In this document: positions 34,600 to 55,338 of the stretch, in pieces
Layout: the number at the start of each line of letters is the position of its first letter
How positions within the stretch are numbered: the first letter of the stretch is position 1
Source: Hyphomicrobium sp. ghe19
GTDB lineage: Bacteria; Pseudomonadota; Alphaproteobacteria; Rhizobiales; Hyphomicrobiaceae
DNA length: 64,000 bases
Assembly: GCF_902712875.1 (NCBI RefSeq)
Contig: NZ_LR743509.1
Coordinates: 682,001 to 746,000 of the forward strand
Direction of reading: 5' to 3'
The notes under the pieces: model-generated
What the model saw: only the letters and a program-made list of their open reading frames with translations
The model's database searches: none
What the model was told of the DNA's origin: nothing
Translations under genes and position numbers: made by a program

Positions 34600-35015
34600 C
34601 TATCATTGCGGTTCAGTTTCTCACATGCCCGCCGAACGTGCGCTTCGGCCTCTGAACTAGATTCGTGTTGAGCCTTCTTCAGAAGAGCCTCGCCAGGCGT
34701 CCGGCAGGAGGCTCGGACGCTAGATTGCTTTGTGTAAGAGCAACCCAAGTCACGCTGGACGACGCCCCGTGCTCTGGGATCATTACCTTTCGATAAAAAG
34801 CGTGATGCCGAGTGGACGTAGGACGGATGGCACATTCTGGTCCTGGCCCTTCTTCGAATCGAGCCCGAAGTGAGTTCTTCGCCGAAGCAATTTCTGCTAA
34901 TGGAATATTGGGGCTTTGCCCTTTTCTCGCACGCCCACGGTGAGGGTCCAAAAGAAGCCGCAAGGTGCGAATATCTACCCGAACGCGTGCACGCTTAAGA
35001 ACATTTCACACCAGA
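34600..35015 (+). other. Intergenic stretch with a nested hairpin
   Basis: About 415 bases without a convincing gene. At 34611-34657 GTTCAG/CTGAAC encloses GCCGAA/TTCGGC, which could be a weak terminator for the DUF3617 gene; no T-run follows. The remainder probably holds the promoter of the TonB-like gene. Confidence 0.4.
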
Positions 35016-39600: not shown

Positions 39601-40590
39601 TCATTTGATTTCAGGCTTCACTGTAACGCCCCAAGGCAAGCGTCCAACGGGGATGGACTTTTCAGCCTTCAGTGTTGCGACGTCGATGACGGTCACGTCG
39701 TTCGTCATGCCATTGGCAACGTAGAGCTTGGTTCCATCGGGTTTCAAAGCGAGATGCCATGGCCGTTGACCGACAAGAATATAGCTCTTGACCTCGTGCG
39801 TTGCCGCGTCAACGACGGCCACTCTGTTGGACGGCCCGAGCGCGACGAATGCCGTCTTGCCGTCAAACGTAAATCTGATTCCGATCGGCTGCATGAGTTC
39901 GGGCCGAATGCCGGGAACGTCGAACGCCAACTTCTTTTTGATCTCGAACGTCTTGGTATCGATGATCGCGACGGTGCCGCCAACTTCCGCTGAAACCCAG
40001 ACTTCGCCTCCGTCTTTTGTGAACGTCGCTTCTCTCGGTCGCGTATCGACGAGAATGTTTGCGAGCACTTGATTGGTCTTGGCATCGATGAAGTGTGCCA
40101 TGCTCGTCTGCTCGGACGTGTTGACGATCAACGCGTCGTCCGGAGAAACGGCCATCCCTTCGGGCTCCACGCCAACGGGCACTTCTGCAATCGCCAGGCC
40201 CGTGGCGCGATCCATGACGGTGACCAAGCCGTCGTCCTCATTCGCGACATAGATGCGATCGCCCTTGTGATTGACGTCCAGGAGCTCCGGATCCGGGCCA
40301 GAAGCAGCGTAGGACTTCACGACCTCCAACTTTTCCGTGTCGATGACGTCGAGCCTGTTGTCGTCGCCAACGCAAACGATGAGTTCTTTATAATCCGGCG
40401 TGATGACGATGCCGCGCGGTCGCTTCCCCGTCGGGATGCTCTTGATGATTTTCAGCGTATCACTGTCGATGACTGTTACCGTGTTGTCCTTCTCGTTGGA
40501 GACAAAAATCTTGTCCGCAAAGGCCGAGGGCGCGATGCCGAACATCAGTGAAGCGACCAGAAGCCGCGTCTGAAGTGTATTCATGTCCAT
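39601..40590 (-). CDS. PQQ-associated YVTN beta-propeller protein (cassette A)
   Basis: About 329 residues: signal peptide (ends AFA-D), then seven YVTN blades with repeated VSNEKDNTVTVID, YVANEDDGLVTVMD and YVANGMTNDVTVID units. It matches the beta-propeller family linked to PQQ-dependent alcohol catabolism (TIGR03866-like). The start at 40590 follows AGAGGA. It lies 22 bases after the binding-protein gene, as the last gene of cassette A. Very similar in order and sequence to the cassette B copy at 47983-48963. Probably periplasmic; role unknown. Confidence 0.9.
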   Translation of the reverse strand: MDMNTLQTRLLVASLMFGIAPSAFADKIFVSNEKDNTVTVIDSDTLKIIKSIPTGKRPRGIVITPDYKELIVCVGDDNRLDVIDTEKLEVVKSYAASGPDPELLDVNHKGDRIYVANEDDGLVTVMDRATGLAIAEVPVGVEPEGMAVSPDDALIVNTSEQTSMAHFIDAKTNQVLANILVDTRPREATFTKDGGEVWVSAEVGGTVAIIDTKTFEIKKKLAFDVPGIRPELMQPIGIRFTFDGKTAFVALGPSNRVAVVDAATHEVKSYILVGQRPWHLALKPDGTKLYVANGMTNDVTVIDVATLKAEKSIPVGRLPWGVTVKPEIK

Positions 40591-40612
40591 CGTTCCTCTG
40601 ATGTCTTTAGGC

Positions 40613-41827
40613 TCAGCCTTGCTGCTTGCACGCCGTTTCGGGCTCATCGACGCCAAGTGTGTCAGTCAGATACTTCTGGTGAAGAAACCCGTCCTGTGGC
40701 GACATCGACACAAGCGAACGCGGACCGCTTAGGATGATCGGCTGGCGCAATTGCCGATCCCACGTTCGGAACGACATGGCTTGACCTTTGAAGCCAGCCA
40801 CCTGAAAATCTTTCGACAGCAGATAGGCGCGCCAGCCTGTGGCATCGGTTTTCTGCGATCGCGTCACAGCCTCTCCGAAAATGCGAACTGCCAGCCACGC
40901 CATGTAGTCACGCTCGGTCATTTGCCGCTTCGTCATTGCCTTGAAGCGGTTCTGCAGTTGGATTCCGCCGTATTGCTCATAGGCTCGATGCCAGGCCACC
41001 GCGACGAGTCCATGCGTTCCGGCGACCGGCTTCGGGACCGACGTCCGCCACATCAGATAGTCCCCAAACGTTTCGTCATTATCGGCGACGAAGACGATGT
41101 CGTGCGGTGGCGGAGACTGGGTCAGCATAGGGATCTGAGTTTGAATTTGCTGATGGCCCGTCTCGGAGCGGCGGTTGCCCGGATCGAAAGTGATGGTCCG
41201 CTCTTCAACGATCGCGTTGCCGAATTTCTTGGCGGCGCGTTTCATCGCGTCGGCGTATTGAACGTCTTCCTTGGCCGCGCCTCGTAGGAGGAACCACAGC
41301 TTCCAACGCTTCCATGTCATGTATTGCGCCAACGCATCGGCGCGCATGGCCCAGCTCGGGGCAACATGAAAGACGTTGTGCCGGCAGTCCTTGCCGCGAA
41401 GCTCATCCTCGCTCGCGCGCGCGTTGATAATGATTGCGTCGCGCGCTTCAGGGAGATCGGCAACGCGGAGGAGATCGTCCGGCTCGAGATCGGCTACGAT
41501 CAGGTGCGTCTTTTGCAGAAGCTCTTTGGCAGCGGCGACGATGTCGCCCTCGTTGGGTGTGATCTTTTCATCGAAATGATAGGATTGTCCGAGAAAGCGC
41601 CCGGTTGCGAGGTTGTCCCCGACTCCGAGCCGGGCACCTTGAATGCCCTGATCGGTGATGACCGGCTCGACGAGGGAGATGGGCAGAGGCTCGGGATAAT
41701 TCCGGCCAAGATAGCCAATTTCTACCTGAAGTGTGGCCGGCGGCGAAGGGTTAGCTCCGGCCACAGACGTCAAAATGAACGGCAGCAGCCAAGGCAAACA
41801 TCGGATACGCATCTTCACAGGTTTCAC
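40613..41827 (-). CDS. PQQ-associated ABC-type substrate-binding protein (cassette A)
   Basis: 404 residues: signal peptide (about 1-25), then a type 1 periplasmic binding fold like the branched-chain amino-acid receptors. Recognisable segments are DQGIQGARLG, LIVADLEPDDLL, HVAPSWAMRADALAQY and VAGTHGLVAVAWHRAYE. It fits the TIGR03863-like family found with PQQ-dependent dehydrogenases. The usual ABC ATPase and permease are absent here and in cassette B, so it may act as a sensor or chaperone rather than in transport. It overlaps the upstream gene by four bases (ATGA). Confidence 0.88.
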   Translation of the reverse strand: MKPVKMRIRCLPWLLPFILTSVAGANPSPPATLQVEIGYLGRNYPEPLPISLVEPVITDQGIQGARLGVGDNLATGRFLGQSYHFDEKITPNEGDIVAAAKELLQKTHLIVADLEPDDLLRVADLPEARDAIIINARASEDELRGKDCRHNVFHVAPSWAMRADALAQYMTWKRWKLWFLLRGAAKEDVQYADAMKRAAKKFGNAIVEERTITFDPGNRRSETGHQQIQTQIPMLTQSPPPHDIVFVADNDETFGDYLMWRTSVPKPVAGTHGLVAVAWHRAYEQYGGIQLQNRFKAMTKRQMTERDYMAWLAVRIFGEAVTRSQKTDATGWRAYLLSKDFQVAGFKGQAMSFRTWDRQLRQPIILSGPRSLVSMSPQDGFLHQKYLTDTLGVDEPETACKQQG

Positions 41828-43632
41828 TGAGTCGTTTTTGCTTCGCTGCCTGACATTCCGGACCCCGATCCGGTCAAGAATTTCAACGCACCCATTGCGG
41901 CTTGATTGCTCGCGTCAGAAGCAATGTCGATGGCAGTTTTTCCCGCTGAGGATTTCTTTTTCGGATCTGCGCCCGAACGTAACAATAGGCCGATCATCGG
42001 CGCATTGTTCTGTGCCGCTGCGATCATCAAGGCCGTAACGCCATCAGCGGAAGCGGCATTAACATCAGCGCCTTTTTTAATGAGTTCCTCCGCGAGAGCG
42101 AGCGGCGTCGGACCGCGCGCAAGCTGGTTCAGCCGCTGCTGCGGCTGCAATTGCGTTGCGCAAACCATCAGCGGCGTGACCTTCTCCGGACCGCCAGCTA
42201 CGTTGACCTTGGCACCGGCATCCATCAGCGCCTTCGCGGCGAAGAAATTTCCATTAGAGAGAGCGACCTCCAGAGCTGTGTAGCCCTTCTCCGTGCCCTT
42301 CTCGATATCGGCGCCGTGTTTTGCCAAGAGCTCAATCGATGGCACGTGATTGACGTTGATGGCATGCTCGAGAGCCGTCATATCATCGCTATCCGTCGCG
42401 TCCGGCTTGGCACCAGCATCCAGCAAGACCTGCATGATGTCCGTTCTTCGGATACTCGCCGCGGCGCCCAGAGGTAACGCCCCAAGCTTATCGCGCTTGT
42501 TGGCGTCAGCACCCTTTTCGATGAGGAACTTCACACGTTCGGCGTCGGCGCCGACAACCGCGTTCATGAGTTCTGTGTTGACGTCGACGCCGTCCTTGAG
42601 CCATGCCTCCAATCGCTGTCGCGTGACGACCTGATCGGGCGATGCGTCGGCGCTGCGCTCTCTCGTTTTTTGAACGGTGAGGTAGCGTTGCTCGTAGGAT
42701 TGGCCTTGCTGCTCTTGAATGATGCCGCGGGATGGAAGAGTTCCCTCGACGATGCAGTTCGAGCATTTGACAAGCGGCACGCCGTAATCGGCGAGGATTT
42801 GAGCGATCTCGTCCTTGGCGTCTTCCATGGCCATGTCGATCTTGAGTTTCAGAACTACGTCCGTGTTTTGTACGCCCCAACCCAAGGAGAACTCGACAGG
42901 CGTCGTATCGACCATCATGTTGACGGGCTGGATGGTGAGCGGCTCGCCCTTTTTCTTCAGCCACCCCGCAAACGGGCCCCATACGGCGGCGATGTCGATC
43001 TTCTTGTCGACGACGCGCTGGACTTGCCGCCACGGCTGCTGCTCAGGTTCGAGATCGGCATCGACGCTGACGATCTGCAGATCGACGTTTTCCTTGATCC
43101 CATGCTCGGCGAGAACGTCGCGCATTGCGGAATGCTGGAAGACACCGACCTTGAGCTGATGGAGCATCGGATCTTCCATGCTTTTGATATCGATGCCGCT
43201 GTCCGAACGATATGCAAGAACATAGGTCGAGCGATACACGGGCATCGTCGTCAGAAGATTTGGATAATCGGTCGGCATGCCGAGGAGGATTTGGCATTCG
43301 TTATTGTCGAACGTCTCACGCGTGAGGCCGCGCTCGATGTAGGGCCGCCAGAAGAACGTGATGTCGACGCCAAGTTTATGTCCGACGGCTGCCGCGATCT
43401 TATTCTCGAAGCCCTCGCGCTTGTTGTCGGAGAGCGGCATGTTTCCGGGGTCGGCGCATGCGACGAGCCTGGTCAATTGCAATTTCTTCGCTTCTTCCTT
43501 CGCTGCCGATAGCTCTGCGGAAGTCAGCTGATCGAACGGCTTCGATTTTAGATATGTCAGGTCGCGCGACCACGCGGGAGTTGCCGCAATCGCGACTAAG
43601 GTACAGGAGAGAAAGAGCTTGAGGCCACGCAT
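41824..43632 (-). CDS. XoxJ/MxaJ-like binding protein fused to ankyrin repeats (cassette A)
   Basis: 602 residues. Signal peptide (1-22); type 2 binding fold (about 50-300) of the quinoprotein-dehydrogenase-associated family (TIGR03871-like), with ADPGNMPLSD, REGFENKIA, FFWRPYIERG and WGPFAGWLK; a KCSNC motif (about 287-291); then six to seven ankyrin repeats (about 345-590) with units such as LLDAGAKPD, LAKHGADIE, LMDAGAKVN, LIKKGADVN and LLRSGADPK. MxaJ and XoxJ normally end after the binding fold. Ankyrins are protein-interaction repeats and are uncommon in exported bacterial proteins. Lies directly after the XoxF gene of cassette A. Confidence 0.9.
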   Translation of the reverse strand: MRGLKLFLSCTLVAIAATPAWSRDLTYLKSKPFDQLTSAELSAAKEEAKKLQLTRLVACADPGNMPLSDNKREGFENKIAAAVGHKLGVDITFFWRPYIERGLTRETFDNNECQILLGMPTDYPNLLTTMPVYRSTYVLAYRSDSGIDIKSMEDPMLHQLKVGVFQHSAMRDVLAEHGIKENVDLQIVSVDADLEPEQQPWRQVQRVVDKKIDIAAVWGPFAGWLKKKGEPLTIQPVNMMVDTTPVEFSLGWGVQNTDVVLKLKIDMAMEDAKDEIAQILADYGVPLVKCSNCIVEGTLPSRGIIQEQQGQSYEQRYLTVQKTRERSADASPDQVVTRQRLEAWLKDGVDVNTELMNAVVGADAERVKFLIEKGADANKRDKLGALPLGAAASIRRTDIMQVLLDAGAKPDATDSDDMTALEHAINVNHVPSIELLAKHGADIEKGTEKGYTALEVALSNGNFFAAKALMDAGAKVNVAGGPEKVTPLMVCATQLQPQQRLNQLARGPTPLALAEELIKKGADVNAASADGVTALMIAAAQNNAPMIGLLLRSGADPKKKSSAGKTAIDIASDASNQAAMGALKFLTGSGSGMSGSEAKTTQ

Positions 43633-43691
43633 TATTTTTTGACCTTCGACTGTGGTTGATCCCAGCGGTCCGGCTATCGAGCAAACGGAAT

Positions 43692-43722
43692 GGCGCCCGG
43701 CCTCGCATGAGGTCCGGACGCC
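43692..43722 (-). other. Hairpin after the cassette A XoxF gene
   Basis: GGCGCCCGG (from 43692) pairs with CCGGACGCC (to 43722) with inner CTC/GAG and a four-base loop. No T-run follows, resembling the hairpin between mxaF and mxaJ. Confidence 0.55.
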
Positions 43723-43748
43723 TAGTTCCTGGCGGTTACGTCATGTCC

Positions 43749-45644
43749 TCACGGATAGACGCGGAACGTCGACAGCACGCCGCCCTGCGGGATCTTGTCG
43801 AGACCCGCGGCTTTCGCCATGGCCGTCGCACCGATCGCGCCGAACTTGTCGTCCATGTCTAGGCCTGCAGTGACCGGGATGCCGATCCAGCCACCGAGAC
43901 CCTGGAAGACGGAGATGTATTCCTTGCCGTCCACTTTGTAAGCGATCGGATTCCCGATGATGCCGGAAGCAAGCTTGCGTTCCCAGACAACCTTACCGGT
44001 GTTGCGATCGACGGCACGGAAGTGGCCGCTGTTCGAACCGTAGAACATCAGTCCGCCATCGGTGTTGAGCGTGCCGGACCAATTCGGATAGGGATCAGGA
44101 ATCTCCCAGTCCGCCGTACCCGTCACGATGTCGAACTTCTTGATCTTGCCGGTAATGCCGGGCTTCTCCGGATACATGTAGACGTTGGCGAAGACGTACA
44201 CGGTGCCCTGTTGGGTATGCGTGCGATCCTGCGGTTCGTCTTCCATGCACCAGTTGTTGGTCGGGCAATAGAACTTGTTCGGCTCTTTCGGATCGACCGA
44301 GCACGGCTGCTGATCCTTGCCGCCCATCGCTGACGGGCAAGCCTGGACGTTGCGATGACGCTCGAACGGTGAGTGCTCGTAGACCTTAATCGGACGGCCG
44401 GTCTTGAGGTCGACTTTCTCGGCCCAGTTCACGGTCACGAACTTGTTGGCGCGCAGCAGCGTGCCGTCGTCGCGATTGAGAACGTAGTTGAAGCCGTTGC
44501 GGTCGAAGTGAACGAGGACGTCCTGCTTCTTGCCATCGATATCGAGGTTGTCGACAAGGATGTTCTCGTTGACGCCGTCGTAGTCCCACTGATCGAACGG
44601 TGTCATCTGGTAGGCCCAGGCGACGGAGCCGTCTTCAACGTGGCGGGCGAAGATGGTCATCGACCACTTGTTGTCCCACTTGCCGTTGTTGCACTCTTCG
44701 TGAGTCTTGGCGCCGCAGCGATAGGACGGGCTCCAATGACCGGGGTTGCCTGTCGACCAGTAGACGAGCTTGCGTTTGGGATCGTAGCTGCCCCACGCCC
44801 AGTATGAGCCGCCGCCGATCTTCCATTCGCCGCCGTTCGTCGAAGGATAGCTCGAGACGCCGATATCGGAGCCGGCTGTGCCGTATTCCGGATGCGCCTT
44901 GTTCGTTTCGGGCGTCATGCAGACGTCTTTGTCGGGACCGTTCGAGTGGCACTTCCACACAACCTTGCCGGTCTTGATGTCGTATGCCGTCAATCGTCCG
45001 CGAGCTGCGAACTCGTCGCCGCCGAAGCCCGCGATAACGAGGTTCTCAGCGATCAATGTCGGGCCGGTGATCGTTTCGCCTTTTTCGGGATAAGCGTGTT
45101 TGACGACCCAGACTTCCTTGCCCGTCGTCGCATCGAGCGCGATCACGAATCCGTCGAGTGTATGATAGATGACTTTGCCATCCGCATAGTTGACGCCGCG
45201 ATGAACCGTATCGCAGCAGGCGCGCGGCACGGCGGTTTCGTCGCGGTCGGTCTTCTTGACGTAGTTCCAGACCTGGACGGGGTTGTCGGGATCGGTCAGG
45301 TCGAGAGCCTGCAGAATATTGCACTGTGCCATGTTCGGGCAGCCGGACGAGAAATACATCATCGGCTTGCCGTTATGGATGACGACAATCGGCTGACCTT
45401 CGTGGCCCCGCAGTGCACCGGTCGATTGCGACCACGCGAGCTGCAGTTTGTCGATGTTGCCGGTGTTGATATCGGCAAGTGGCGAGTGGCGGGTCAGCTG
45501 ATTATCGCGACCCGGCGCAGGCCATAGGTCCGGGTTTTTCGCCTCTTGTTCGATCTGCTCGTTGGCAAAGCTTGGCACTGCCGCGCCGCATAGGAGCGCC
45601 ACCGCAAGCCCGCCCGCCAACAGGAATGATTTCCTGAAGCTCAT
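43749..45644 (-). CDS. xoxF: XoxF-like lanthanide-type PQQ alcohol dehydrogenase (cassette A)
   Basis: About 631-residue precursor of the PQQ propeller family. Signal peptide ends SFA; vicinal disulfide motif is RACCDTVHRG; catalytic Asp354 is followed by Asp356 in QWDYDGVN, the second Asp being diagnostic for lanthanide-dependent enzymes. The C-terminal W-docking motifs are intact. The sequence differs clearly from XoxF5 (partial copy at the right edge) and contains an insertion with extra cysteines (YRCGAKTHEECNNGKWDNKW; CSVDP, FYCPTNNWCM). It may belong to the XoxF1 or XoxF3 clade; I cannot decide without alignment. The start at 45644 follows GAGAGG. Confidence 0.92.
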   Translation of the reverse strand: MSFRKSFLLAGGLAVALLCGAAVPSFANEQIEQEAKNPDLWPAPGRDNQLTRHSPLADINTGNIDKLQLAWSQSTGALRGHEGQPIVVIHNGKPMMYFSSGCPNMAQCNILQALDLTDPDNPVQVWNYVKKTDRDETAVPRACCDTVHRGVNYADGKVIYHTLDGFVIALDATTGKEVWVVKHAYPEKGETITGPTLIAENLVIAGFGGDEFAARGRLTAYDIKTGKVVWKCHSNGPDKDVCMTPETNKAHPEYGTAGSDIGVSSYPSTNGGEWKIGGGSYWAWGSYDPKRKLVYWSTGNPGHWSPSYRCGAKTHEECNNGKWDNKWSMTIFARHVEDGSVAWAYQMTPFDQWDYDGVNENILVDNLDIDGKKQDVLVHFDRNGFNYVLNRDDGTLLRANKFVTVNWAEKVDLKTGRPIKVYEHSPFERHRNVQACPSAMGGKDQQPCSVDPKEPNKFYCPTNNWCMEDEPQDRTHTQQGTVYVFANVYMYPEKPGITGKIKKFDIVTGTADWEIPDPYPNWSGTLNTDGGLMFYGSNSGHFRAVDRNTGKVVWERKLASGIIGNPIAYKVDGKEYISVFQGLGGWIGIPVTAGLDMDDKFGAIGATAMAKAAGLDKIPQGGVLSTFRVYP

Positions 45645-45991
45645 GGGTTTTCCTCTCCATCCGTTCGATGCATACGCGTGCCCTGCCCCACCGTCGTCTT
45701 TCGACGCCGGTTCGCTTCGATTTGCGGCCACACAAGCGCGAGCAATTTACGTTGCAACTTTTGGCGTCGGCCGACGGCGCAACCAGCGAGTTGGACTCGC
45801 AGCGTGACATCGCCCGACAAAAGTGCGGAGGATGGCGAGAGAACCTGGAGGACCGGGCTTTCACACCACCCCACCGCAAGCGTGGCATCGCGACACTAGG
45901 TGGCAGGAAATCACCTCACCACGGGAGGACTTCCCGATGTTTTTTGGCTGTCTTCCCATTGCAAACGGGATGCGAGCGGCGCGATCCGCTT
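45645..45991 (-). promoter_or_regulatory. Upstream region of cassette A with palindromic motif
   Basis: Roughly 345 bases between the response regulator stop and the cassette A XoxF start. It contains GGGAGGACTTCCC (45923-45935), one mismatch from GGGAA-N3-TTCCC, 279-291 bases upstream of the start codon, followed by a second inverted pair (TTCCCATTGCAAACGGGA at 45952-45969). Cassette B has a matching site at nearly the same distance. Confidence 0.55.
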
Positions 45992-46612
45992 CTAATTCTT
46001 TCGCATTTCGAGCGCCATTCGGATGAGGTCAGCGGTGCGTTCCACAGCGAGTTTGCTTTTCATCAAACTGCACGCGTTAGCCACCGTTTTATAGGCGACG
46101 CCGAGTGTCGACGCGATTGCGGAGAGGCTTTTGCCTTCGCCAAGAAGACGCAAGATTTCTATCTCGCGCATCGTCAGGCGCTCAAGAAGATCGCCGTCTC
46201 CGGAGAATTGCTTCATGGCAAGATCCGTTGCGATTTCCCGCTCGACGTAGCGTTTGCCTTCCGCGACGCGCAGTACGGCGGTGACCAACTCCTCGGCCGA
46301 CGCACCTTTCGAGATATAGCCTCGTGCGCCTGCCTGCACAGCGCGCGCGGCGTAGATCGCCTCGGCATGCATGCTGAGCATCAGCACCTTCGCATTAGGG
46401 TTCTCGATAAGAAATCGCTTGAGCAACTCGAGACCGCTGGAACCCGCGAGACTAATATCAAGTACAACGACATCGGGGCTCTGCTGTCGAAATACCGTGA
46501 GGGATTCGTAGCTCGTTGCAGCTTCATAAATGTCCGCGCTCGGTATCGCAGAAAGGAGGCGCCGAACCCCTTGGCGTACAAGAACGTGGTCATCAACCAA
46601 TAAGATCTTCAT
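45992..46612 (-). CDS. NarL/LuxR-type response regulator (system 2)
   Basis: 206 residues: receiver domain with VDDHV acidic pocket, phospho-Asp in VVVLDISLAG (about residue 54) and the conserved Lys in YISKGAS; LuxR-type helix-turn-helix with the recognition helix VAYKTVANACS. It overlaps its kinase gene by 20 bases. The kinase-regulator pair sits at the end of the cassette B gene train, so it is probably co-transcribed with it and may control both cassettes. Confidence 0.92.
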   Translation of the reverse strand: MKILLVDDHVLVRQGVRRLLSAIPSADIYEAATSYESLTVFRQQSPDVVVLDISLAGSSGLELLKRFLIENPNAKVLMLSMHAEAIYAARAVQAGARGYISKGASAEELVTAVLRVAEGKRYVEREIATDLAMKQFSGDGDLLERLTMREIEILRLLGEGKSLSAIASTLGVAYKTVANACSLMKSKLAVERTADLIRMALEMRKN

Positions 46613-47966
46613 GATTGTCCTGCGCCTGTCTCAATGGGTTGGATGCATTCTCTTGGATTGCGGATGCCGGAAATTCGGCTTCGACAAGCGTGCCCTTGCC
46701 ATCCGGGCGATTCCCGATGCTGAAGACGCCTCGCTTCGAGGCTACGCGCTCGCGCATGCCAGTCAGCCCATGGCCGGATCGGTTCGATTTCAGGCCGCCG
46801 CCGTCATCAAGCACGTGTACGCGCACGACGTCGCCCTCGACGCCAACGGTAATTTCGATTTCTGACGTATGGCCGTGGCGTACGGCATTGCTCATGCTTT
46901 CCTGAATGATCCGATAGACGACGGGATCAAGTTCGGGGCCGACGCCGCCTTCCGGCAGGTTGGCGCGAACCTTCAGGCCGGGGTGTCTTGACGTCCAAAA
47001 TTCGATCAACCGCTCTACCGCTGCCTGAAGACCCAGGTCTTCGACCGTTCCGGTTCTCAATCGTCCCAGAATTTGCAGGACGCGCTTCTGGCTGAGGCTG
47101 ACAGCCTCGCGGATCGACTCCAGTCGTTCAAGCGCATCGTGACTTGCTCGATCGCCAAGGGACTTCTGCACAGCCGCCGCGTCGAGCCCGACCGAGAATA
47201 GCAGCGGCCCAATCTCGTCGTGGAGATCGCGCGCCAATTCTGCGCGCTCTTCATCCTGCACAGTCGAAAGCTGCTCTTCGAGAAGGGTTTTGGAGGCCTC
47301 GGCCTCGTCGAGCTGGCCGACCATGTGATTGAAGCCGCTCGTAACAGCGCGTAGATCGCGGGGACCCTCTTCGACAAGCCGCATACTAAAATCCTGCTCG
47401 GCTACTCTCGACAGCGCGTGTCTCAATTGATCGAGCGGCTTCAGTTCACGCTCGACGGTCCAGTAGATCAATGCCGACACCAAGCCGGCAAGTATCGAGG
47501 CAAGAAGCAGGCTGTTGCCGAGATCTTCCCATACTTCCTGGACTTCGTTGCGGGGATCGGCTTCGATCAGGAACGCGGAATAGCCTTGAATATTGGGCGG
47601 CACCGAGACCCGCGCTCCTTCGGGCGGGCCGCCGAGGATCTTATAAAACCAGTCCGGCGCTGGTTCGTCCGGCGCTTCGAGATGCGATTGGACAACACGC
47701 TCGCCGTTCATGTCGAGAAGGGAAACTCTCAGATGCCGGCCGCTGTTGAACTGCTCGATGATGCCGCTCAATTTCTGGTAAGGATTGGGTGATCCCTCCA
47801 AACCTTTCGCACCATCCTCGAGTACCTGCTCGCCGACCACAAAAGCGGAATGCAGCTCGGTTCTAATTTTTCCCGCCGCTCTCCAGTAAGACATGCTCAC
47901 GCCGACGAGGAGACTTAGCGCCAGCACGAGCGCCACGTTCAGCAGAAGTCTTTGTCGGAGTGACAT
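46593..47966 (-). CDS. NarX-type sensor histidine kinase (system 2)
   Basis: 457 residues: transmembrane helix (about 8-28), periplasmic sensor of about 120 residues, second helix (about 150-170), HAMP domain, HisKA_3 domain with phospho-His in RDLHDEIGP (about residue 248), and HATPase_c with N-box ESMSNAVRHG, DDGGGL and GHGLTGMRERV. Catalytic motifs are intact. It begins 16 bases after the cassette B propeller gene, so it reads as part of the same operon. The signal sensed is unknown; lanthanide or alcohol status in the periplasm is a reasonable guess from context. Confidence 0.9.
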   Translation of the reverse strand: MSLRQRLLLNVALVLALSLLVGVSMSYWRAAGKIRTELHSAFVVGEQVLEDGAKGLEGSPNPYQKLSGIIEQFNSGRHLRVSLLDMNGERVVQSHLEAPDEPAPDWFYKILGGPPEGARVSVPPNIQGYSAFLIEADPRNEVQEVWEDLGNSLLLASILAGLVSALIYWTVERELKPLDQLRHALSRVAEQDFSMRLVEEGPRDLRAVTSGFNHMVGQLDEAEASKTLLEEQLSTVQDEERAELARDLHDEIGPLLFSVGLDAAAVQKSLGDRASHDALERLESIREAVSLSQKRVLQILGRLRTGTVEDLGLQAAVERLIEFWTSRHPGLKVRANLPEGGVGPELDPVVYRIIQESMSNAVRHGHTSEIEITVGVEGDVVRVHVLDDGGGLKSNRSGHGLTGMRERVASKRGVFSIGNRPDGKGTLVEAEFPASAIQENASNPLRQAQDNHEDLIG

Positions 47967-47982
47967 GGTCGTTCCGCAAACA

Positions 47983-48963
47983 TCACGGTTTGATTACGAG
48001 TCCCCATGGAAGTCTGCCGACGGGAATTGATTTCTCCGGCTTCAAGGTCGCGACGTCGATTACGGTTACGTCGTTGGAGAGGCCGTTGGCGGTGAAGAGC
48101 TTCGTCCGGTCGGCGTTGAAGTCCAAGTGCCAGGGCCGCTGTCCGACGAGAATGAAGCTCAACGTCTCATAGGTAGAGGTGTCGATAACGGCGATCCGGT
48201 TTGCGCGGCCTAGCGCAACGAAGGCACGCTTGCCGTCCGCCGAGAACTTGACACCCATGGGCTGGATGAGTTCGGGGCGAACGCCGGGTATATTGAACGT
48301 CAGTCTCTTCCTGATGTTGCGCTTCTCCGCATCGATCACCGACACCGTGCCGCCGACTTCGGCTGTAACCCAGACTTCGCTTCCGTCCGGGCTGTAGCGA
48401 GCGACGCGTGGACGCGTGTCGACCAAGACGTTTGCGACGACCTTCATCGATTTGACATCGATGAAATGCGCCATACTGGTCGACTCGGATGTCGCCACGA
48501 CGATTGAATCGTCCGGCGATACCGCCATGCCTTCTGGTTCGACGCCAATCTGGATTTCTCCGCGCACGGAACCATCAGCGGCATTTATGACGGTCACCAT
48601 GCCGTCGTCCTCGTTGGCGATGTAGATGAACTTTCCCGCGTGATCGATATCGAGAAGCTCTGGGTCGGGCCCGGACGTTTCGTGCGTGCTGGTGATTTCG
48701 AATGTCGAGGTGTCCATCACGTCAAGCCGATTGTCGTCGCCGGCGCAGATGAAGAGCGTCTTGTAATCCGGAGAGAGGACCATGCCGCGGGGGCGCTTCC
48801 CGACGGGGACGGACTTGATGACTTTCAGCGTGTCCGTATCGAGAATGGTGATCGTGTTGTCCTTCTCGTTGCTGATGAATGCGGTGCCGGCAAGCGTCGG
48901 CACAGCCCACACCAGCAGCGTGGCCGTCGAAATCAGTATGGCGCCGATTTTTTTTTGTTTCAT
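47983..48963 (-). CDS. PQQ-associated YVTN beta-propeller protein (cassette B)
   Basis: 326 residues: signal peptide then seven YVTN blades with AFISNEKDNTITILD, YIANEDDGMVTVIN and FTANGLSNDVTVID units. Clear paralogue of the cassette A protein across its whole length, including the C-terminal KSIPVGRLPWG segment. It lies 13 bases after the binding-protein gene and 16 bases before the kinase gene. TIGR03866-like; role in the periplasm unknown. Confidence 0.9.
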   Translation of the reverse strand: MKQKKIGAILISTATLLVWAVPTLAGTAFISNEKDNTITILDTDTLKVIKSVPVGKRPRGMVLSPDYKTLFICAGDDNRLDVMDTSTFEITSTHETSGPDPELLDIDHAGKFIYIANEDDGMVTVINAADGSVRGEIQIGVEPEGMAVSPDDSIVVATSESTSMAHFIDVKSMKVVANVLVDTRPRVARYSPDGSEVWVTAEVGGTVSVIDAEKRNIRKRLTFNIPGVRPELIQPMGVKFSADGKRAFVALGRANRIAVIDTSTYETLSFILVGQRPWHLDFNADRTKLFTANGLSNDVTVIDVATLKPEKSIPVGRLPWGLVIKP

Positions 48964-48976
48964 GATCGTTCGCTCG

Positions 48977-50251
48977 TCAGTTTCTCTGTTGGCATTTCGA
49001 TTCCGGGGCGTCGTAGCCGAGCGTGTCCGTCAGGTATCTCGGATGCAGGAATCCCTCCTGTGGGGAGACCGAAACGAGGGCGCGGGGGCCGACCAATAGG
49101 ATCGGCTGCCGTAGTTGCCGGTCCCAGTGGCGAAAGTTCATGCCCTGCGATTTGAAACCGGCGACTTCGAATTGGTCCGAGAGAAGATAATCGCGAAGCG
49201 CTTCTGGATCGGCGGAGCCGGTACGGGTGACAGCCTCGCCAAAGGCGCGGACAGCGAGCCATGCTGAATAGTCGCGTTCCGTCATGATGCGGCCGATCTT
49301 CTTCTCGAAGCGGTTCTGCATCTGCGTAGCAGCGGCTTCTTCGTAAGAGCGATGCCACGAGACCGCGGTGAGGCCGTGCGTGCCGGCAACAGGCCGCGGT
49401 TCGTACGTGTTAAACAGGAGATAATCGCCGAAGCTCTCTTCGACGTCAGCGACGACGATGACATCATAGGAGCCCAAGCCCTGCGTCAGCAGCGGCATCT
49501 GCGTCTGGATCTGTTGATGGCCGGTGTCGGTCCGCCGAGAACCTGCTACGTAAGCGTAGGTCTTCTCGCCGACGATTTTTCCGCCAAAGCGCGAGGCCGC
49601 TCTGCGAACAGCCGCCGCGTATTCTTTGTCCTTGGGCATTTCTCCTGAGATCAACGCCCACTTCTTCCATTGCTTCCAGATAAGGAATTGCGCGAGAGCG
49701 TCAGCGCGCATGGCCCAATCGGGAGGGATGTGAAAGACGTTGCGCCGGCAATCCTCATTTCTCAGCCGGACATCGTAGGATCGAATGCTGAATATGATGG
49801 CGTTGGCTGCTTCGGGGAGATCGGCCACAGCAAGAAGATCTGTCGGCTCGAGGTCTGCGACGATCAGTGAGACGCCCGATTTCAGAAGCTCAAGTGCTTT
49901 TGGCTTGATATCTTCGGATTCCGGTATGACGGCTTCGATCAACGTGTAGTTCTGGCCGATAAGCCGGCCTGTCATATTGTCTTCGGTCAGCCCGACGCGC
50001 GCGCCCTGGATGCCCTTGTCGGTATAGACTTTGTCGATAAGCGAGAGCGGCTCGGCTTCGACATATGCTTTGCCAAGGTAGCCGATCTTCACACTGAGAA
50101 GTTTTTGTACATCTGCCCCGGGCGAAGCGTCGTCGCTTCGCACCGGATGCGCCAGAGATGTAAGCATAGCGGCTAACACGAGCACAAAACCCTTGGCACC
50201 GCAGAACGCGCTCCAATGGATGTACGCGGCGGTGCTTTGGGTCCGCGTCAC
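48977..50251 (-). CDS. PQQ-associated ABC-type substrate-binding protein (cassette B)
   Basis: About 424 residues. I place the start at the GTG at 50251, which overlaps the cytochrome stop in a GTGA arrangement and precedes a signal segment (GFVLVLAAMLTSLAHPVRS). The mature part is a type 1 periplasmic binding fold with the same landmarks as the cassette A copy (DKGIQGARVG, LIVADLEPTDLL, HIPPDWAMRADALAQF, VAGTHGLTAVSWHRSYE). TIGR03863-like. No ABC ATPase or permease gene accompanies it. A long upstream in-frame extension lies antisense-like over the cytochrome gene frame and is not credible. Confidence 0.88.
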   Translation of the reverse strand: MTRTQSTAAYIHWSAFCGAKGFVLVLAAMLTSLAHPVRSDDASPGADVQKLLSVKIGYLGKAYVEAEPLSLIDKVYTDKGIQGARVGLTEDNMTGRLIGQNYTLIEAVIPESEDIKPKALELLKSGVSLIVADLEPTDLLAVADLPEAANAIIFSIRSYDVRLRNEDCRRNVFHIPPDWAMRADALAQFLIWKQWKKWALISGEMPKDKEYAAAVRRAASRFGGKIVGEKTYAYVAGSRRTDTGHQQIQTQMPLLTQGLGSYDVIVVADVEESFGDYLLFNTYEPRPVAGTHGLTAVSWHRSYEEAAATQMQNRFEKKIGRIMTERDYSAWLAVRAFGEAVTRTGSADPEALRDYLLSDQFEVAGFKSQGMNFRHWDRQLRQPILLVGPRALVSVSPQEGFLHPRYLTDTLGYDAPESKCQQRN

Positions 50252-50817
50252 CAGTTCCTCTTGGAGCCTTTGTAAAGCGAATGGACAAACGCGATGATCT
50301 TCCACAACTGGTCGTCGTCCTGAATGATTTCGCCGAAGGGTGGCATGGGACCTACAACCCCTTCCTGGCCCTTGCGGGAGATGCCGTACGTCTTCTGCAG
50401 ATCCTGGCTGCCGTGCGAGATCAGACGAAATAGGATGTCGTCGTCGCTGCCGTAGACCCAGGTCTCGTTCGTGAGGGGCGGGCACATGCCGCCACCGCCG
50501 CCGCCACCATGACAGCCGTTGCAGCTATAAGAAAAGTAGAGCTTCTTGCCCTCTTCGATTTTGTCGGCTTGATCCGTGTAAGGGTTCTTCATTGTGCCGA
50601 TAGGATTGGCCTTGTCGACTTCGAGCGGCGGTTTGTGAGTCACCTCGGTTGGCTTTTTGGCCTTGAATTCTTCATATGCCTTCGCTGCCGCCGCCTTGGC
50701 TGCGGCCTGCGGATCATCGTCGTCGTCCGCCAGGACGCCGTGCGTGGATACGAACAAAGCTGCAGCGCTCAGCATAAGGGCAGCGGCAATGACAAAGCCC
50801 CAATTCCTATTTCTCAC
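50248..50817 (-). CDS. c-type cytochrome, methanol-metabolism related (cassette B)
   Basis: About 189 residues from a GTG at 50817 preceded by GGAAGGA. Signal peptide ends VLA, followed by five Asp. The single haem motif is CNGCH (residues 99-103), directly followed by seven glycines and a further Cys112 (GMCPP). Candidate Met ligand lies in VGPMPPFGE. The pattern fits the methanol-metabolism c-type cytochromes found beside PQQ dehydrogenases, so it is the probable electron acceptor of the cassette B enzyme. Cassette A has no equivalent gene and may share this one. Confidence 0.88.
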   Translation of the reverse strand: MRNRNWGFVIAAALMLSAAALFVSTHGVLADDDDDPQAAAKAAAAKAYEEFKAKKPTEVTHKPPLEVDKANPIGTMKNPYTDQADKIEEGKKLYFSYSCNGCHGGGGGGGMCPPLTNETWVYGSDDDILFRLISHGSQDLQKTYGISRKGQEGVVGPMPPFGEIIQDDDQLWKIIAFVHSLYKGSKRNW

Positions 50818-50856
50818 GAGCCGATCCTTCCGTAGCAAAAATTTTATTGACCCCAA

Positions 50857-50952
50857 GTTCCCAAGTGATTGATTGCGGTTGGCTACCGACGCTTTCCATT
50901 TAGCGCGTTCGCTATTGCCGAAATTTCCCGAAATTTCTTGCCGATGCTCGGC
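50857..50952 (-). promoter_or_regulatory. Short gap with repeated CGGGAAATTT half-sites
   Basis: Between the ankyrin-fusion gene and the cytochrome gene, the minus strand carries CGGGAAATTTCGGC (50930-50917), preceded by a second GAAATTT. The left half matches the CGGGAA palindrome family, the right half does not. It may be an internal control point of cassette B. Confidence 0.35.
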
Positions 50953-52809
50953 TCAATTGCTTCCCGACTGAGAGAGGAGATTCAGCAGGCCGACGACTGA
51001 CGTGTTTCCGTTCTGGCGGGCGAGATCGGCGGCAGTCTGTCCTTGCGGCGACTTGAAGTTCTGATCGGCTCCGGCCTGTGCCAGCAATCCGACGATCGGC
51101 GCGTTGTTGTGCGCGGCAGCGAGCAGGAGTGCGGTCACGCCCGTACCCGAAACATCATTGACCTTAGCGCCCTTGGCGATCATCGCGCGAGCCACCTCGA
51201 TCGGTCCTGGATCGGTCGGATTGGCCTTCTCGATCCGAGATACGCCCGCACTGAGAGTCAGCTCGCGCTCTTCCGAGCCGGAGATCAGCATCAAGGGCGT
51301 CAGCTTGGCGTCGCCATCCGCCGTTTCGACGTTCGCACCGACGTTGATTAGCGCGATTGCGGCCTTGTACTTGCTTTCCAGGATTGCCAGCGCGAGCGGC
51401 GTTACGCCCGTTGGCGTCAGCGCTTCAAGATCGCCTCCATGCGATCCGAGCGCTTCGATCACCGGGCCGGAGTTGCGCAGAACCGCGTGCTGCAATGGCG
51501 TATATCCGTCACGATCCTTGATGTTGACGTCGGCCTTGCGAGCGACGAGCGCCAATATGATTTCCGGGCGCTCGTTGCGTGCTGCGACGTGGAGCGGCGC
51601 GTATCCCTCGGAATTGAGTTTGTTGACGTCGGCGCCCTTGTCGATGAGGAAGGCGATGCGCTCTCCGTCGTTTGCAAGAACGGCATTGGACAGTTCTTGG
51701 TTGAGGTCGGCTCCGTCCTTAAGCCAAGCCTCCAAGCGCTCGCGCGTGACTTTCTGATCAGGTGCGATTGCTGCGTGCGCCTCTTTGGAATCCTCGACAG
51801 GTTTCGTATAGGTGCCGTGGGAAGGAAGATCGCCCGCGACAAAGCAACGGCTGCACTGCACGAGCGGCACGCCGTAATCGCGTAGGATCTTCTCGATCTC
51901 GGCCTTCTTGGCGTCGAGTGCCAGGTCGAATTTGTATTTGAGTATCCAATCGATCTTTCTGAGGCCGATGGTCAGATCGAATTCGAGCGGAACGTCGTCT
52001 TCGTCAAGATTCACGGGCTGGATAACGAGCGGCTGGCCCTTCATCGTTTTCAGCCAACCGGCAAATGGCCCCCAGACGGCCGCGACGTCGAGCTTGCCGT
52101 CGAGAACTTCCTGGACTTGACGCCAGGGTTGGGCATTGGGATCAAGATCCGAGTTGTGGCTCAATACGTGCAGTTCGACGTTGCTTCGGATGCCGCGCTC
52201 GGCAAGCGCCATCCGCAGTCCGGACGTTTGGAATGTTCCAATCTTGAGTGTCTTAAGCTGTGGGTCGTCGAGATTCTTGATCTTGAGGCCGCGATCGCTG
52301 CGATAGGCGAGTACATAGGTCGTGCGGTAGATCGGCTCCGTCGTCAGCACGCGCTCAAAGCCGACGGGCAGATCGAGCAGCACATCACAATCGCCGGATT
52401 CAAAAGTTTGCCGGGTGATGCCACGTTCGAGATACGGCCGCCAGAAGTAGGTGACGTACGTCCCCATCTCGGCCGCAATAAGCTCTATGATTTTATTTTC
52501 AAAGCCGGCGCGCTTGATGTCCGAGAGCGGCAGATTTCCGGGGTCGCCGCAAACTCGAAGTCCGGGAACCTGCCGTTCGGTCGCCGCCTTCTTTAAAGCG
52601 TTGTGATCGGCTGACGTCAGCGGCATCTGCGCTTCAAGATGCGCAAGCGCCGTCTCCAACCGAAGCTTGTCTTTATCCACCAGAGCATCGGCCGCGAGAG
52701 CGGATTGGCCGGCAACGCTCAGCGCCGAGAGCGCCAGTGCGGCCCCATATACCAGAAGGCTCCTCGGACGCTTTCTGCTTCGACCACCCGCCATTGTGAA
52801 ATTTCTCAT
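50953..52809 (-). CDS. XoxJ/MxaJ-like binding protein fused to ankyrin repeats (cassette B)
   Basis: 618 residues, full-length paralogue of the cassette A fusion. Signal peptide (cleaved near ALA), binding fold (about 75-330) with GDPGNLPLSD, RAGFENKIIE, YFWRPYLERG and WGPFAGWLK, a QCSRC motif (about 317-321), then about seven ankyrin repeats (about 355-610; LIDKGADVN, LVARKADVN, LGSHGGDLE, LINVGANVE, MIAKGAKVN, LLAQAGADQN). Conservation of both the CxxC motif and the ankyrin tail in two diverged copies argues that the fusion is functional. The start is uncertain between ATGs at 52809 and 52794. Confidence 0.9.
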   Translation of the reverse strand: MRNFTMAGGRSRKRPRSLLVYGAALALSALSVAGQSALAADALVDKDKLRLETALAHLEAQMPLTSADHNALKKAATERQVPGLRVCGDPGNLPLSDIKRAGFENKIIELIAAEMGTYVTYFWRPYLERGITRQTFESGDCDVLLDLPVGFERVLTTEPIYRTTYVLAYRSDRGLKIKNLDDPQLKTLKIGTFQTSGLRMALAERGIRSNVELHVLSHNSDLDPNAQPWRQVQEVLDGKLDVAAVWGPFAGWLKTMKGQPLVIQPVNLDEDDVPLEFDLTIGLRKIDWILKYKFDLALDAKKAEIEKILRDYGVPLVQCSRCFVAGDLPSHGTYTKPVEDSKEAHAAIAPDQKVTRERLEAWLKDGADLNQELSNAVLANDGERIAFLIDKGADVNKLNSEGYAPLHVAARNERPEIILALVARKADVNIKDRDGYTPLQHAVLRNSGPVIEALGSHGGDLEALTPTGVTPLALAILESKYKAAIALINVGANVETADGDAKLTPLMLISGSEERELTLSAGVSRIEKANPTDPGPIEVARAMIAKGAKVNDVSGTGVTALLLAAAHNNAPIVGLLAQAGADQNFKSPQGQTAADLARQNGNTSVVGLLNLLSQSGSN

Positions 52810-52907: not shown

Positions 52908-54791
52908 CTATTCCATCACGCGGAACGTAAAGAGCGTTCCGGCCTGAGGAATCTTGTCGAGGTTGGCTGCCTTCGTCATCGCAGTTGCACCGATCGCCCC
53001 GAACTTGTCGTTGAGATCCAGGCCTGCCGTAACTGGGACGCCGATCCAGCCACCGATGCCCGACAGGATCGAGACGTACTGTTTGTCCTTGATCTTGTAG
53101 GTGATCGGATTGCCGATGATGCCCGACGCGAGCTTACGATCCCAAAGCACTTTGCCGGAGTTGCGATCAACGGCGCGGAAATCACCGCCGAGCGAACCGT
53201 AGAACAGCAAGCCGCCCGCGGTATTCAGCGTGCCGCCCCAATTCGGGTACTGATCAGGAATTTCCCAATCGGTTGTGCCGGTCAGAACGTCGAACTTCTT
53301 GATCTTGCCCGTGACGCCCGGCTTCTCGGGGAACATGAACACGTTTGCGAACACATAGACGGTGCCCTGCTGCGTGTGGCTCCGTTCCTGCGGTTCAAGT
53401 TCCATGCACCAGTTGTTGGTTGGGCAATAGAACTTGTTCGGTTCTGCCGGATCGACCGAGCAAGGCTGCTGGTCTTTACCGCCCATCGCCGACGGACATG
53501 CATTGACGTTGCGACCACGCTCAAGCGGCGAATGCTCGCGCACCTTCACTGGACGGCCCGTCTTGAGGTCGATCTTCTCGGCCCAGTTAACCGTCACGAA
53601 CTTGTTGGCACGGAGCAGGGTGCCATCGGTGCGATCGAGAACGTAGCTGAAGCCGTTCCTATCGAAGTGGACGAGCGTCTTGCGATCTTTCCCGTCGACG
53701 TTCATGTTGACGAGCACGTTCTCGTTGACGCCGTCGTAGTCCCATTGATCGAATGGGGTCATTTGGTAGGCGAAGACCGCTTCACCCGTATCGACCTTGC
53801 GACCGAAAATGGTCATCGACCACTTATTGTCGAACTCGCCCGTGTTGCATTCCTCGTGCGTTTTCTTCGCGCAACGATATGCGGGGCTCCAAAGGCCCGG
53901 GTTGCCGGTCGAGTAGTAAATCATCTTCAGCTCGGGATCGTAGCTGAACCATCCCCAAGCCGAACCGCCACCGATCTTCCAGTCGTCGCCGACGTGCGTG
54001 TGAATTCCGAGGTCCTTGCCCGCCGTCCCGTAATGCGGGTTGGCCTTGTTGGTGTCGGCCGTCAAGCAGACGTCCTTATCGGAGCCTGTCGAATAACATT
54101 TCCAGACCTGCTTACCGGTCTTCAGGTCATACGCGTTGACGCGACCCCGCGCCGCGAACTCGTCACCGCCGAAGCCGATGATGACAAGGCCATCCGCGAT
54201 GAGTGGCGCGTTGGTGATGGTCTCACCCTTTTCAGGCCAAGCGTGCTTGACGACCCAGACTTCCTTGCCCGTCTGAGCATCGAGCGCTATGACGAAGCCA
54301 TCGAGTGTACCGAAGACAACCTTTCCGTCCGCATATGCTGGGCCGCGGTTCACGGTATCGCAGCAGGCCCGCGGTACGGCCGTTTCATCGCGATCCGATT
54401 GCTTTACGTAATTCCAAATCTGCTTGGGATGATCGGGATCCGAAAGATCAAGCCCCTGGACGATGTTGCACTTCGACATTTCCGGGCAACCGGAAACAAA
54501 GAACATCATCGGCTTGCCGCCGACGTCTTCTATGACGAGCGGCTGACCTTCGTGGCCACGGAGTGCGCCGGTCGATTGCGACCAGACCATCTGAAGTTTC
54601 GAGACGTTGTCCGTGGTGATGTCTTTCAGTGGGCTGTGACGGGTCAAAGCGTTGTCCCGACCCGGGGCACCCCACTCATTCGGATTGGCAGCGCGTTGTT
54701 CGACTTCATCTTCAGCGAATGCCGGCAGGGCGAACCCGACCAGAACTGCGAGGATTCCGCCCGCCAGATAACGGAGCGAACTTAATTTCAT
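52908..54791 (-). CDS. xoxF: XoxF-like lanthanide-type PQQ alcohol dehydrogenase (cassette B)
   Basis: About 627-residue precursor, close paralogue of the cassette A enzyme. The signal peptide ends AFA-E; the vicinal disulfide motif is RACCDTVNRG; Asp351 and Asp353 occur in QWDYDGVN, again the lanthanide signature. The cysteine-rich insertions (YRCAKKTHEECN; CSVDP; FYCPTNNWCM) are shared with cassette A and absent from MxaF. The start at 54791 is preceded by AGGAGGAAACAAC, an excellent ribosome site. Substrate could be methanol or another primary alcohol. First gene of a seven-gene train ending with the system 2 regulator. Confidence 0.92.
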   Translation of the reverse strand: MKLSSLRYLAGGILAVLVGFALPAFAEDEVEQRAANPNEWGAPGRDNALTRHSPLKDITTDNVSKLQMVWSQSTGALRGHEGQPLVIEDVGGKPMMFFVSGCPEMSKCNIVQGLDLSDPDHPKQIWNYVKQSDRDETAVPRACCDTVNRGPAYADGKVVFGTLDGFVIALDAQTGKEVWVVKHAWPEKGETITNAPLIADGLVIIGFGGDEFAARGRVNAYDLKTGKQVWKCYSTGSDKDVCLTADTNKANPHYGTAGKDLGIHTHVGDDWKIGGGSAWGWFSYDPELKMIYYSTGNPGLWSPAYRCAKKTHEECNTGEFDNKWSMTIFGRKVDTGEAVFAYQMTPFDQWDYDGVNENVLVNMNVDGKDRKTLVHFDRNGFSYVLDRTDGTLLRANKFVTVNWAEKIDLKTGRPVKVREHSPLERGRNVNACPSAMGGKDQQPCSVDPAEPNKFYCPTNNWCMELEPQERSHTQQGTVYVFANVFMFPEKPGVTGKIKKFDVLTGTTDWEIPDQYPNWGGTLNTAGGLLFYGSLGGDFRAVDRNSGKVLWDRKLASGIIGNPITYKIKDKQYVSILSGIGGWIGVPVTAGLDLNDKFGAIGATAMTKAANLDKIPQAGTLFTFRVME

Positions 54792-55338
54792 GTTGTTTCC
54801 TCCTAGCCTGTCTTTTCCCCCGCTGCCTTTGCGGTTCGCGGGTCGCTTCTTCGCCGGTTTCATCGCTGGGCAAAGCCGCTCTGCTTCTCGCGAGCGTGTG
54901 CTCATGAGATTTCAACGAACGAAGGTGCAGTGCTAACGGCGTGTGTCCGGTCTTGGTCTTCAGTTGCCGCGCAGGCCGCGTGACAACTCGCTGATGTTCA
55001 GCGTGCATACGTTAGCGTTCAAATTTTTCCGCAAACATGGGAGGAGTTCCTAGCGCGCAGCGGAAGATGTCCTCTTCACACTGATTTGATGTTATTACGT
55101 ACATTCATCGAGTTTTTAGCGACGGAAATAGACGCGACAGCGAATTCACGACGGCTGCAGGCAAAAAAATTGCGCCGAGCGGAAGACGGGAGGGAGACCG
55201 CTCAGCGCAAATTTCAACGTGACGCTGCTATATGTTCGCGAACGTTGACGTGGCGCCATGGGTATTTCTCCCGATTTCGCGTCCTGAAAATCCCGGGAGC
55301 CGAATTCAAGATCAACCGATTGTATGCCTGCGCCCAGG
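54792..55338 (-). promoter_or_regulatory. Upstream region of cassette B with palindromic motif
   Basis: About 545 bases between the hydrolase stop and the cassette B XoxF start, with no credible gene. GGGAGGAGTTCCT (55039-55051) lies 248-260 bases upstream of the start codon, nearly identical in sequence and distance to the cassette A site. Long AT-rich patches near 55085-55130 could contain promoter elements. Confidence 0.5.

Follow-up and report, generated by a model that had tools for sequence, protein, structure and literature searches.

Ankyrin-fused XoxJ proteins of Hyphomicrobium sp. ghe19 and their pairing with XoxF1-type dehydrogenases

Two fused XoxJ homologues in one genomic window

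We analysed a stretch of 64,000 nucleotides of Hyphomicrobium sp. ghe19 (contig NZ_LR743509.1, positions 682,001 to 746,000; hereafter the window, with coordinates counted from its first nucleotide), in which two cassettes each encode a protein that joins a XoxJ/MxaJ-type binding fold to a C-terminal ankyrin solenoid. In the loci examined, this fusion, which we call J-Ank, pairs closely with a single kind of pyrroloquinoline quinone (PQQ) dehydrogenase, the XoxF1 type. Each of the two J-Ank genes comes after such a dehydrogenase gene, and the same window also holds a plain MxaJ:

41824..43632, minus strand: J-Ank A, XoxJ/MxaJ fold fused to ankyrins, 602 aa, a single open reading frame from ATG
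42769..43467, minus strand: binding-protein fold of J-Ank A, residues 56-288 (TIGR03871, 230.1 bits)
42754..42765, minus strand: CSNC junction motif of J-Ank A, residues 290-293 (KCSNC, C290 and C293)
41863..42639, minus strand: ankyrin solenoid of J-Ank A, residues ~332-590 (Pfam Ank_2, 1.3e-27, and model)
50953..52809, minus strand: J-Ank B, XoxJ/MxaJ fold fused to ankyrins, 618 aa, a single open reading frame from ATG
51859..52560, minus strand: binding-protein fold of J-Ank B, residues 84-317 (TIGR03871, 237.1 bits)
51844..51855, minus strand: CSRC junction motif of J-Ank B, residues 319-322 (QCSRC, C319 and C322)
50965..51762, minus strand: ankyrin solenoid of J-Ank B, residues ~350-615 (Pfam Ank_2, 1.4e-34, and model)
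43749..45731, minus strand: XoxF1-type PQQ dehydrogenase A, DH_A (WDYDGVNE, extra Cys pairs, 7o6z at 845 bits)
52908..54905, minus strand: XoxF1-type PQQ dehydrogenase B, DH_B (7o6z at 862 bits)
27386-28327, minus strand: plain MxaJ (TIGR03870, 357 bits, match to residue 306 of 313; no CxxC)

Both J-Ank proteins look secreted (signal peptide judged by eye). Their scores exceed the curated cut-off of TIGR03871, the quinoprotein-associated binding protein family (212.15 bits), and stay below that of TIGR03870, the MoxJ/MxaJ equivalog (116 and 114.4 bits for A and B; cut-off 258.1), while Ank_2 is matched in the C-terminal halves at 96.6 and 118.9 bits (cut-off 27.3). They do not qualify as plain XoxJ/MxaJ because the chain continues past the fold into the ankyrin half. 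Laid out by eye, J-Ank A has seven repeat units, of which the fifth contains an insertion and the last serves as a cap. AlphaFold2 models of A and B have mean pLDDT (predicted local distance difference test) values of 89.4 and 89.8, which makes the domains confident, and pTM (predicted template modelling) scores of 0.69 and 0.59, which leaves the inter-domain arrangement uncertain. Structural matches to the fold part of the J-Ank A model are MxaJ and XoxJ, including the MxaJ of the MxaF/MxaJ cryo-electron microscopy complex (9ism), and matches to the remainder are ankyrins.

A first-pass annotation had described two proteins with a CSxC motif between binding fold and six to seven ankyrin repeats; both genes lie where it placed them, profiles and motifs agree, and the repeat number is right for J-Ank A. 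It had also set the plain MxaJ apart as having neither ankyrins nor CSxC, in agreement with a TIGR03870 match that spans nearly the whole protein and the lack of a CxxC. Its argument that keeping the full fusion in two diverged copies implies selection is upheld by the 48% identity of A and B and by retention of the fusion in several families.

Pairing of the fusion with XoxF1-type dehydrogenases

The closest solved relative of DH_A and DH_B is 7o6z (845 and 862 bits), followed by 4mae (533 and 555 bits). 7O6Z is described as a XoxF1-type enzyme, and the label XoxF1-type is assigned here solely from scores to solved structures. Both enzymes carry the second Asp of the lanthanide type (FDQWDYDGVNE). 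In contrast, another enzyme of the same genome (on L137) is closest to M. extorquens XoxF (6oc5, 983 bits). The M. extorquens literature also gives the name XoxF1 to a clade-5 enzyme, following a different numbering. The cassettes had initially been called XoxF cassettes; the tie of the fusion to a xoxF gene stands, but the enzymes are closest to the XoxF1 type rather than generic XoxF.

To place the pairing in context, we used 100 stretches taken from genomes (four from the own genome) and five named ones, which were chosen from hits and many of which are related; searches covered genomes of the window's phylum. The first 85 stretches gave 98 J frames, reduced to 92 by removal of identical C-termini, with 66 fused and 26 plain. 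Three of the fused frames come from broken genes (L126, L128 and L129) and that of L018 runs off the end of its contig; three of the plain frames (on L129 and L131) are pieces of fused genes that are broken, and were excluded, leaving 23 intact plain J. Frames run from stop to stop, their lengths and raw Cys counts including some upstream residues, and the pairing counts exclude the window's two cassettes. A dehydrogenase was found upstream in range for 63 of the 66 fused J, in every case one of the DH_A/DH_B type; none was found for the other three. Of the intact plain J, 21 have an MxaF- or XoxF5-like dehydrogenase in range and two have none, and 13 further plain J from across the phylum all sit beside XoxF5-like enzymes. 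Among these 36 intact plain J, none carries ankyrins or lies beside a XoxF1-type enzyme.

The reverse test starts from the enzyme. A DH_B-type enzyme above 1000 bits occurs in 3 of 398 phylum genomes, identical to the three that bear the fusion, and the next match drops to 536 bits. At the level of the class it is present in 1 of 385 genomes, the own genome. Within the family (103 genomes), the enzyme is present in 26 genomes, all of them among the 27 with a long-frame J, and in the 27th (G054, which apparently corresponds to L018) the fused gene lies at a contig end. Thirteen of 199 order genomes carry the enzyme, 12 of them together with the fusion.

Distribution and origin of the fusion

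A database search for the architecture, as proposed in the first-pass annotation, found the fusion in many related bacteria, where it lies beside XoxF1-type dehydrogenases. Ankyrin domains are present in every one of the best 120 of 2137 homologues of one paralogue and the best 120 of 1837 of the other; the lengths of these proteins are mostly about 600 aa and their given names are mostly TIGR03871. The TIGR03871 threshold is reached in 67 of the 103 family genomes, and among the matches listed, 51 in 27 genomes sit in frames of at least 545 aa, the rest being at most 455 aa long. The own genome has five TIGR03871 sites, with long frames only at J-Ank A and B. With the own genome counted, a profile of the fusion matches in 23 of 397 order genomes and in three of the 398 phylum genomes, of which one belongs to another class. 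The five named fused loci (L014-L018) come from metagenome-assembled genomes of Hyphomicrobium, Filomicrobium and an unclassified proteobacterium. No plasmid record covers 80% of J-Ank, and the plasmid records with a dehydrogenase match (n = 532) all stay below 60% identity.

Sequencing error, chance and a separate ankyrin gene were ruled out as explanations because the same single-frame architecture recurs in the 120 homologues listed per paralogue and in other genomes; the earlier concern that an assembly error had split off the ankyrin part is likewise dispelled by homologues that carry one frame. Broken copies of J-Ank do occur, in G400 (L129), G174 (L126), G308 (L131), G368 (L128) and as a third copy in G017 (L192). 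By profile, the break lies within the binding fold in G400 and within the ankyrins in G174, and the G368 copy leaves model positions 1-191 unmatched. In G308, J-Ank is in several pieces with one break (351/352) near the ankyrin start. No intact gene pair with fold and ankyrins apart was seen among the loci examined, G308 not being clean evidence on the point.

A tree of the binding fold alone, with junction and ankyrins omitted, places 41 fused and 35 plain proteins on separate sides with an SH-aLRT (SH-like approximate likelihood ratio test) support of 99. The tree was made by a quick method and is unrooted, it retains 41 of 62 fused and 35 of 36 plain proteins after near-copy removal, and the tool warned that the long branch of MxaJ joins the fused one. 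The fused folds form one clade, with the fusion apparently arising once. Since the A and B paralogues occupy different parts of this clade, in which several deep forks reach only 85-93, the fusion probably preceded the duplication into A and B.

Proposed role of J-Ank

The close pairing, combined with a fold shared with XoxJ/MxaJ, argues for a helper role of J-Ank for the XoxF1-type enzyme. For the plain relatives, a review states that XoxJ/MxaJ bind the apo-enzyme to aid insertion of PQQ and metal, and in M. extorquens AM1 loss of xoxJ is reported to equal loss of both xoxF genes during growth on methanol with lanthanum (La). Our assessment is that J-Ank may be a dedicated assembly or activation helper of the XoxF1-type enzyme with the ankyrins as a second docking arm, a reading to which we give an even chance; the dedicated-helper part, taken by itself, is the more probable. 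The N-terminal fold would bind the immature dehydrogenase and assist entry of PQQ and metal, as proposed for the plain relatives. The ankyrin solenoid would serve as the second arm and would, most likely, hold on to that same dehydrogenase (or to its dimer) while the enzyme is being assembled. The CSxC motif would close a small disulfide clasp in place of the loose tail of plain J and so attach the arm to the fold.

Conservation was assessed on an alignment of 133 of 241 listed proteins (window protein B being present twice among the 241). The ankyrin part nearly matches the fold in conservation (means 1.47 vs 1.11 bits), and its invariant residues include W344, E354, R366 and D414, which we take to fall outside the usual ankyrin repeat consensus. 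Across 50 cassettes, the partial correlation of ankyrin distances is 0.28-0.29 with the dehydrogenase and 0.10-0.11 with the propeller encoded in the same cassettes.

Several observations weigh against this reading, both for the arm and for the pairing. A conserved ankyrin binding face was not found: tip and concave positions compare with convex ones at 2.01 vs 1.98 bits (41 and 33 positions), and in three subgroups the difference is not significant. This weakens simple docking as first suggested, with the ankyrins possibly tying neighbour proteins into a periplasmic complex. The correlation with the dehydrogenase is weak and exceeds that with the propeller in 91% of 500 subsamples, the binding fold follows the propeller (0.32) nearly as it follows the enzyme (0.38), linked genes correlate in any case, and the propeller is as constant beside fused J as the enzyme is. 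As for the pairing, G110, an 84% complete genome whose enzyme gene lies on a contig of 3.4 kb, has no fusion match, G053 has lost the J of its cassette B (L193), and the enzyme genes of L187 and L194, which are short or at a contig end, show no J. Extra XoxF1-type genes on L189-L191 lie on 19.5 kb stretches in which J, propeller and binding protein were unrecognised. The third XoxF1 cassette of G017 (L192:5924-10982) retains only an ankyrin remnant as its J, with cytochrome and binding-protein frames and a short propeller piece alongside.

Cassette neighbours and the propeller

The remaining genes of the two cassettes, and the regulatory genes between them, are as follows:

40613..41827, minus strand: ABC (ATP-binding cassette)-type binding protein A, LutA-like (TIGR03863, 458 bits)
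39601..40656, minus strand: beta-propeller A, LutB-like (TIGR03866, 441 bits)
50248..50856, minus strand: small c-type cytochrome, XoxG-like, of cassette B (one CNGCH)
48977..50485, minus strand: ABC-type binding protein B (TIGR03863, 441 bits over residues 149-499)
47983..48963, minus strand: beta-propeller B (TIGR03866, 436 bits)
45992-46612, minus strand: response regulator, between the cassettes
46593-47966, minus strand: MoxY-type sensor kinase, between the cassettes (LapD_MoxY_N, HAMP, HisKA_3)

As listed, the gene for binding protein A shares its first 4 bases with the end of J-Ank A, and the real start of binding protein B probably lies deeper within its listed frame. In other genomes, neighbours were counted for the fused frames that have 4.5 kb or more of downstream sequence (n = 58, window's own cassettes not included): the dehydrogenase is present in 55, with none found upstream on the fetched stretch in the remaining three, the propeller in 56, the binding protein in 43 and the cytochrome in 27. 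The constant neighbours of fused J are therefore dehydrogenase and propeller, not the binding protein and not the cytochrome.

The constancy of the propeller suggests a different partner for the ankyrin arm, which could dock the LutB-like propeller (and the LutA-like protein), J-Ank then passing lanthanide straight to nascent XoxF1. A propeller gene lies downstream of fused J in those 56 of 58 cassettes; for the 23 intact plain J, none was found on the same strand within 4 kb. In a paper on Methylocella silvestris, the propeller and binding-protein genes adjoining xoxF1 are named LutB and LutA homologues, and lutA and lutB mutants of M. extorquens are described as growing slowly with La. We nevertheless regard propeller docking as unlikely, given the low partial correlation of ankyrins and propeller noted above, the 15 of 58 fused cassettes in which the binding protein was not found, and one of the 13 further plain J (L207), which is likewise followed at 3-4 kb by a binding-protein/propeller pair; gene order, besides, speaks for co-regulation and not for contact.

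Other features surround the cassettes. The pair of MoxY-type sensor and regulator keeps its position in L014, L016 and L107. A TonB-dependent receptor (36766-39432, plus strand) and a TonB protein (34965-35741, plus strand) adjoin cassette A; the best NCBIfam matches of the receptor are far below cut-offs, a relative occupies the same place in L015 and L016, and it is possibly a lanthanide receptor. The own genome (G000) has nine PQQ dehydrogenases above the family cut-off, one of which crosses the right end of the window.

Cysteines at the junction and in the enzyme

Four Cys are invariant across the 133 aligned fusions, including both junction Cys; the other two belong to the fold and are also present in 36 of 36 plain J. 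CxxC is found in 62 of 62 fused J (each at least 580 aa) vs 0 of 36 plain J, whose chains end in short tails at that place. Among the 241 listed rows it is present in 240, P0189 having Arg instead of the first Cys, and 113 rows hold exactly four Cys, from which we infer that the CxxC pair most likely bonds with itself. The possibility that the junction is a separate known module was rejected: the pattern C..C-x(2-4)-G-x-[LIVM]-P-x-x-G, searched in six frames of the window and of 2.46 Mb of retrieved DNA (overlapping loci counted), gave 116 matches, all of which are J-Ank junctions (115 by script, one by eye).

The XoxF1-type enzymes (n = 60) carry four extra Cys pairs, at 131/137 (fractions of 0.90/0.88), 261/271 (0.98/0.98), 339/347 (1.00/1.00) and 477/489 (0.72/0.72) in DH_A numbering. 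These occur in 0 of 34 other dehydrogenases, and 7O6Z lacks them in the alignment. Since both traits belong to one lineage, a link between the CxxC of J-Ank and the extra Cys pairs is hypothetical. If the motif were redox-active, J-Ank could make or correct the disulfides of this Cys-pair-rich enzyme, and the restriction of both traits to fused J and its partner fits such a role. In the J-Ank A model, however, CxxC falls in a coil segment where the binding fold ends, unlike in thioredoxin folds, which have it at the N-end of a helix. One Cys is lost in P0189, and the two traits, following one clade, may be unconnected. Taken together, we consider a redox role rather improbable. An even broader scheme would make J-Ank a periplasmic maturation factor, a single scaffold for installing metal, cofactor and disulfides: one arm would open apo-XoxF1, the ankyrins would bring the LutB-like carrier and CSxC would help with the disulfides. 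In our view it has a small chance of being right.

Other roles for the ankyrins

The arm might instead keep the cytochrome (XoxG) beside the dehydrogenase for electron transfer, since 27 of the 58 fused cassettes, and cassette B of the window, have a cytochrome gene downstream of J, and the Methylacidiphilum XoxG-XoxJ fusion is reported to serve as electron acceptor. We find this very doubtful: the arm is kept in the 31 of 58 cassettes where no cytochrome gene was found, and in cassette A the next gene starts inside the J stop codon, which leaves no room for one. Least probable of all is that the ankyrins merely stabilise or tether J-Ank and bind nothing specific, for although the usual binding face is no more conserved than the back, the ankyrin part is nearly as conserved as the fold, is retained in every intact fused gene examined and has the invariant residues named above.

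On the reading we prefer, that of a dedicated XoxF1-type helper with a second docking arm, J-Ank would be a known helper that has gained a protein-binding scaffold by fusion, apparently on one occasion, and has been retained with a single enzyme type. To our knowledge, ankyrin repeats are unusual in secreted bacterial proteins of central metabolism. The fusion bears on how lanthanide methanol dehydrogenases acquire metal and PQQ in the periplasm. It can serve as a marker for XoxF1-type systems, its ankyrin arm offers a handle for finding the partner, and it gives a testable link between a CxxC-bearing helper and a disulfide-rich enzyme.

Comparison with known systems

A description of ankyrin-fused XoxJ/MxaJ was not found in open literature linking ankyrin with XoxJ, MxaJ, XoxF, PQQ methanol dehydrogenase or quinoprotein, and none of the open-literature papers naming XoxJ contains the word ankyrin. 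In Methylacidimicrobium thermophilum AP8 and Methylocella silvestris, xoxF1 is described as lying next to xoxJ and xoxG, and in M. silvestris lanthanide-uptake relatives are nearby, as in the window cassettes; a term search for ankyrin in the two papers gave no mention. The XoxJ of strain AP8 (MTHMO_v1_1701) is encoded beside a Cys-poor XoxF1, and proteome data for M. silvestris show its XoxJ1 (Msil_3148) falling 62-fold with lanthanide, along with XoxF1. By type, the propeller and binding protein encoded in the window are counterparts of the LutB and LutA relatives named for M. silvestris; for the Lut uptake system (LutA, LutB, LutH), the literature consulted reports no ankyrin fusion.

The closest parallel is cytochrome cGJ (XoxG-XoxJ) of Methylacidiphilum, in which XoxJ is likewise fused within a lanthanide methanol dehydrogenase system; going by its published description, the fusion partner is a cytochrome and not ankyrins, and the enzyme of strain SolV is XoxF2. 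The first-pass annotation had stated that nothing follows the binding fold in known MxaJ/XoxJ proteins, which overlooked this fusion as well as many ankyrin-fused database entries. Compared with XoxJ/MxaJ as represented by TIGR03871, TIGR03870 and the structures 6onp, 5sv6 and 9ism, J-Ank adds the CSxC junction and about 250 ankyrin residues, and in the loci examined it is paired solely with the XoxF1-type enzyme. J-Ank is a variant of XoxJ and not a new kind of system, and it is present in databases under the family name.

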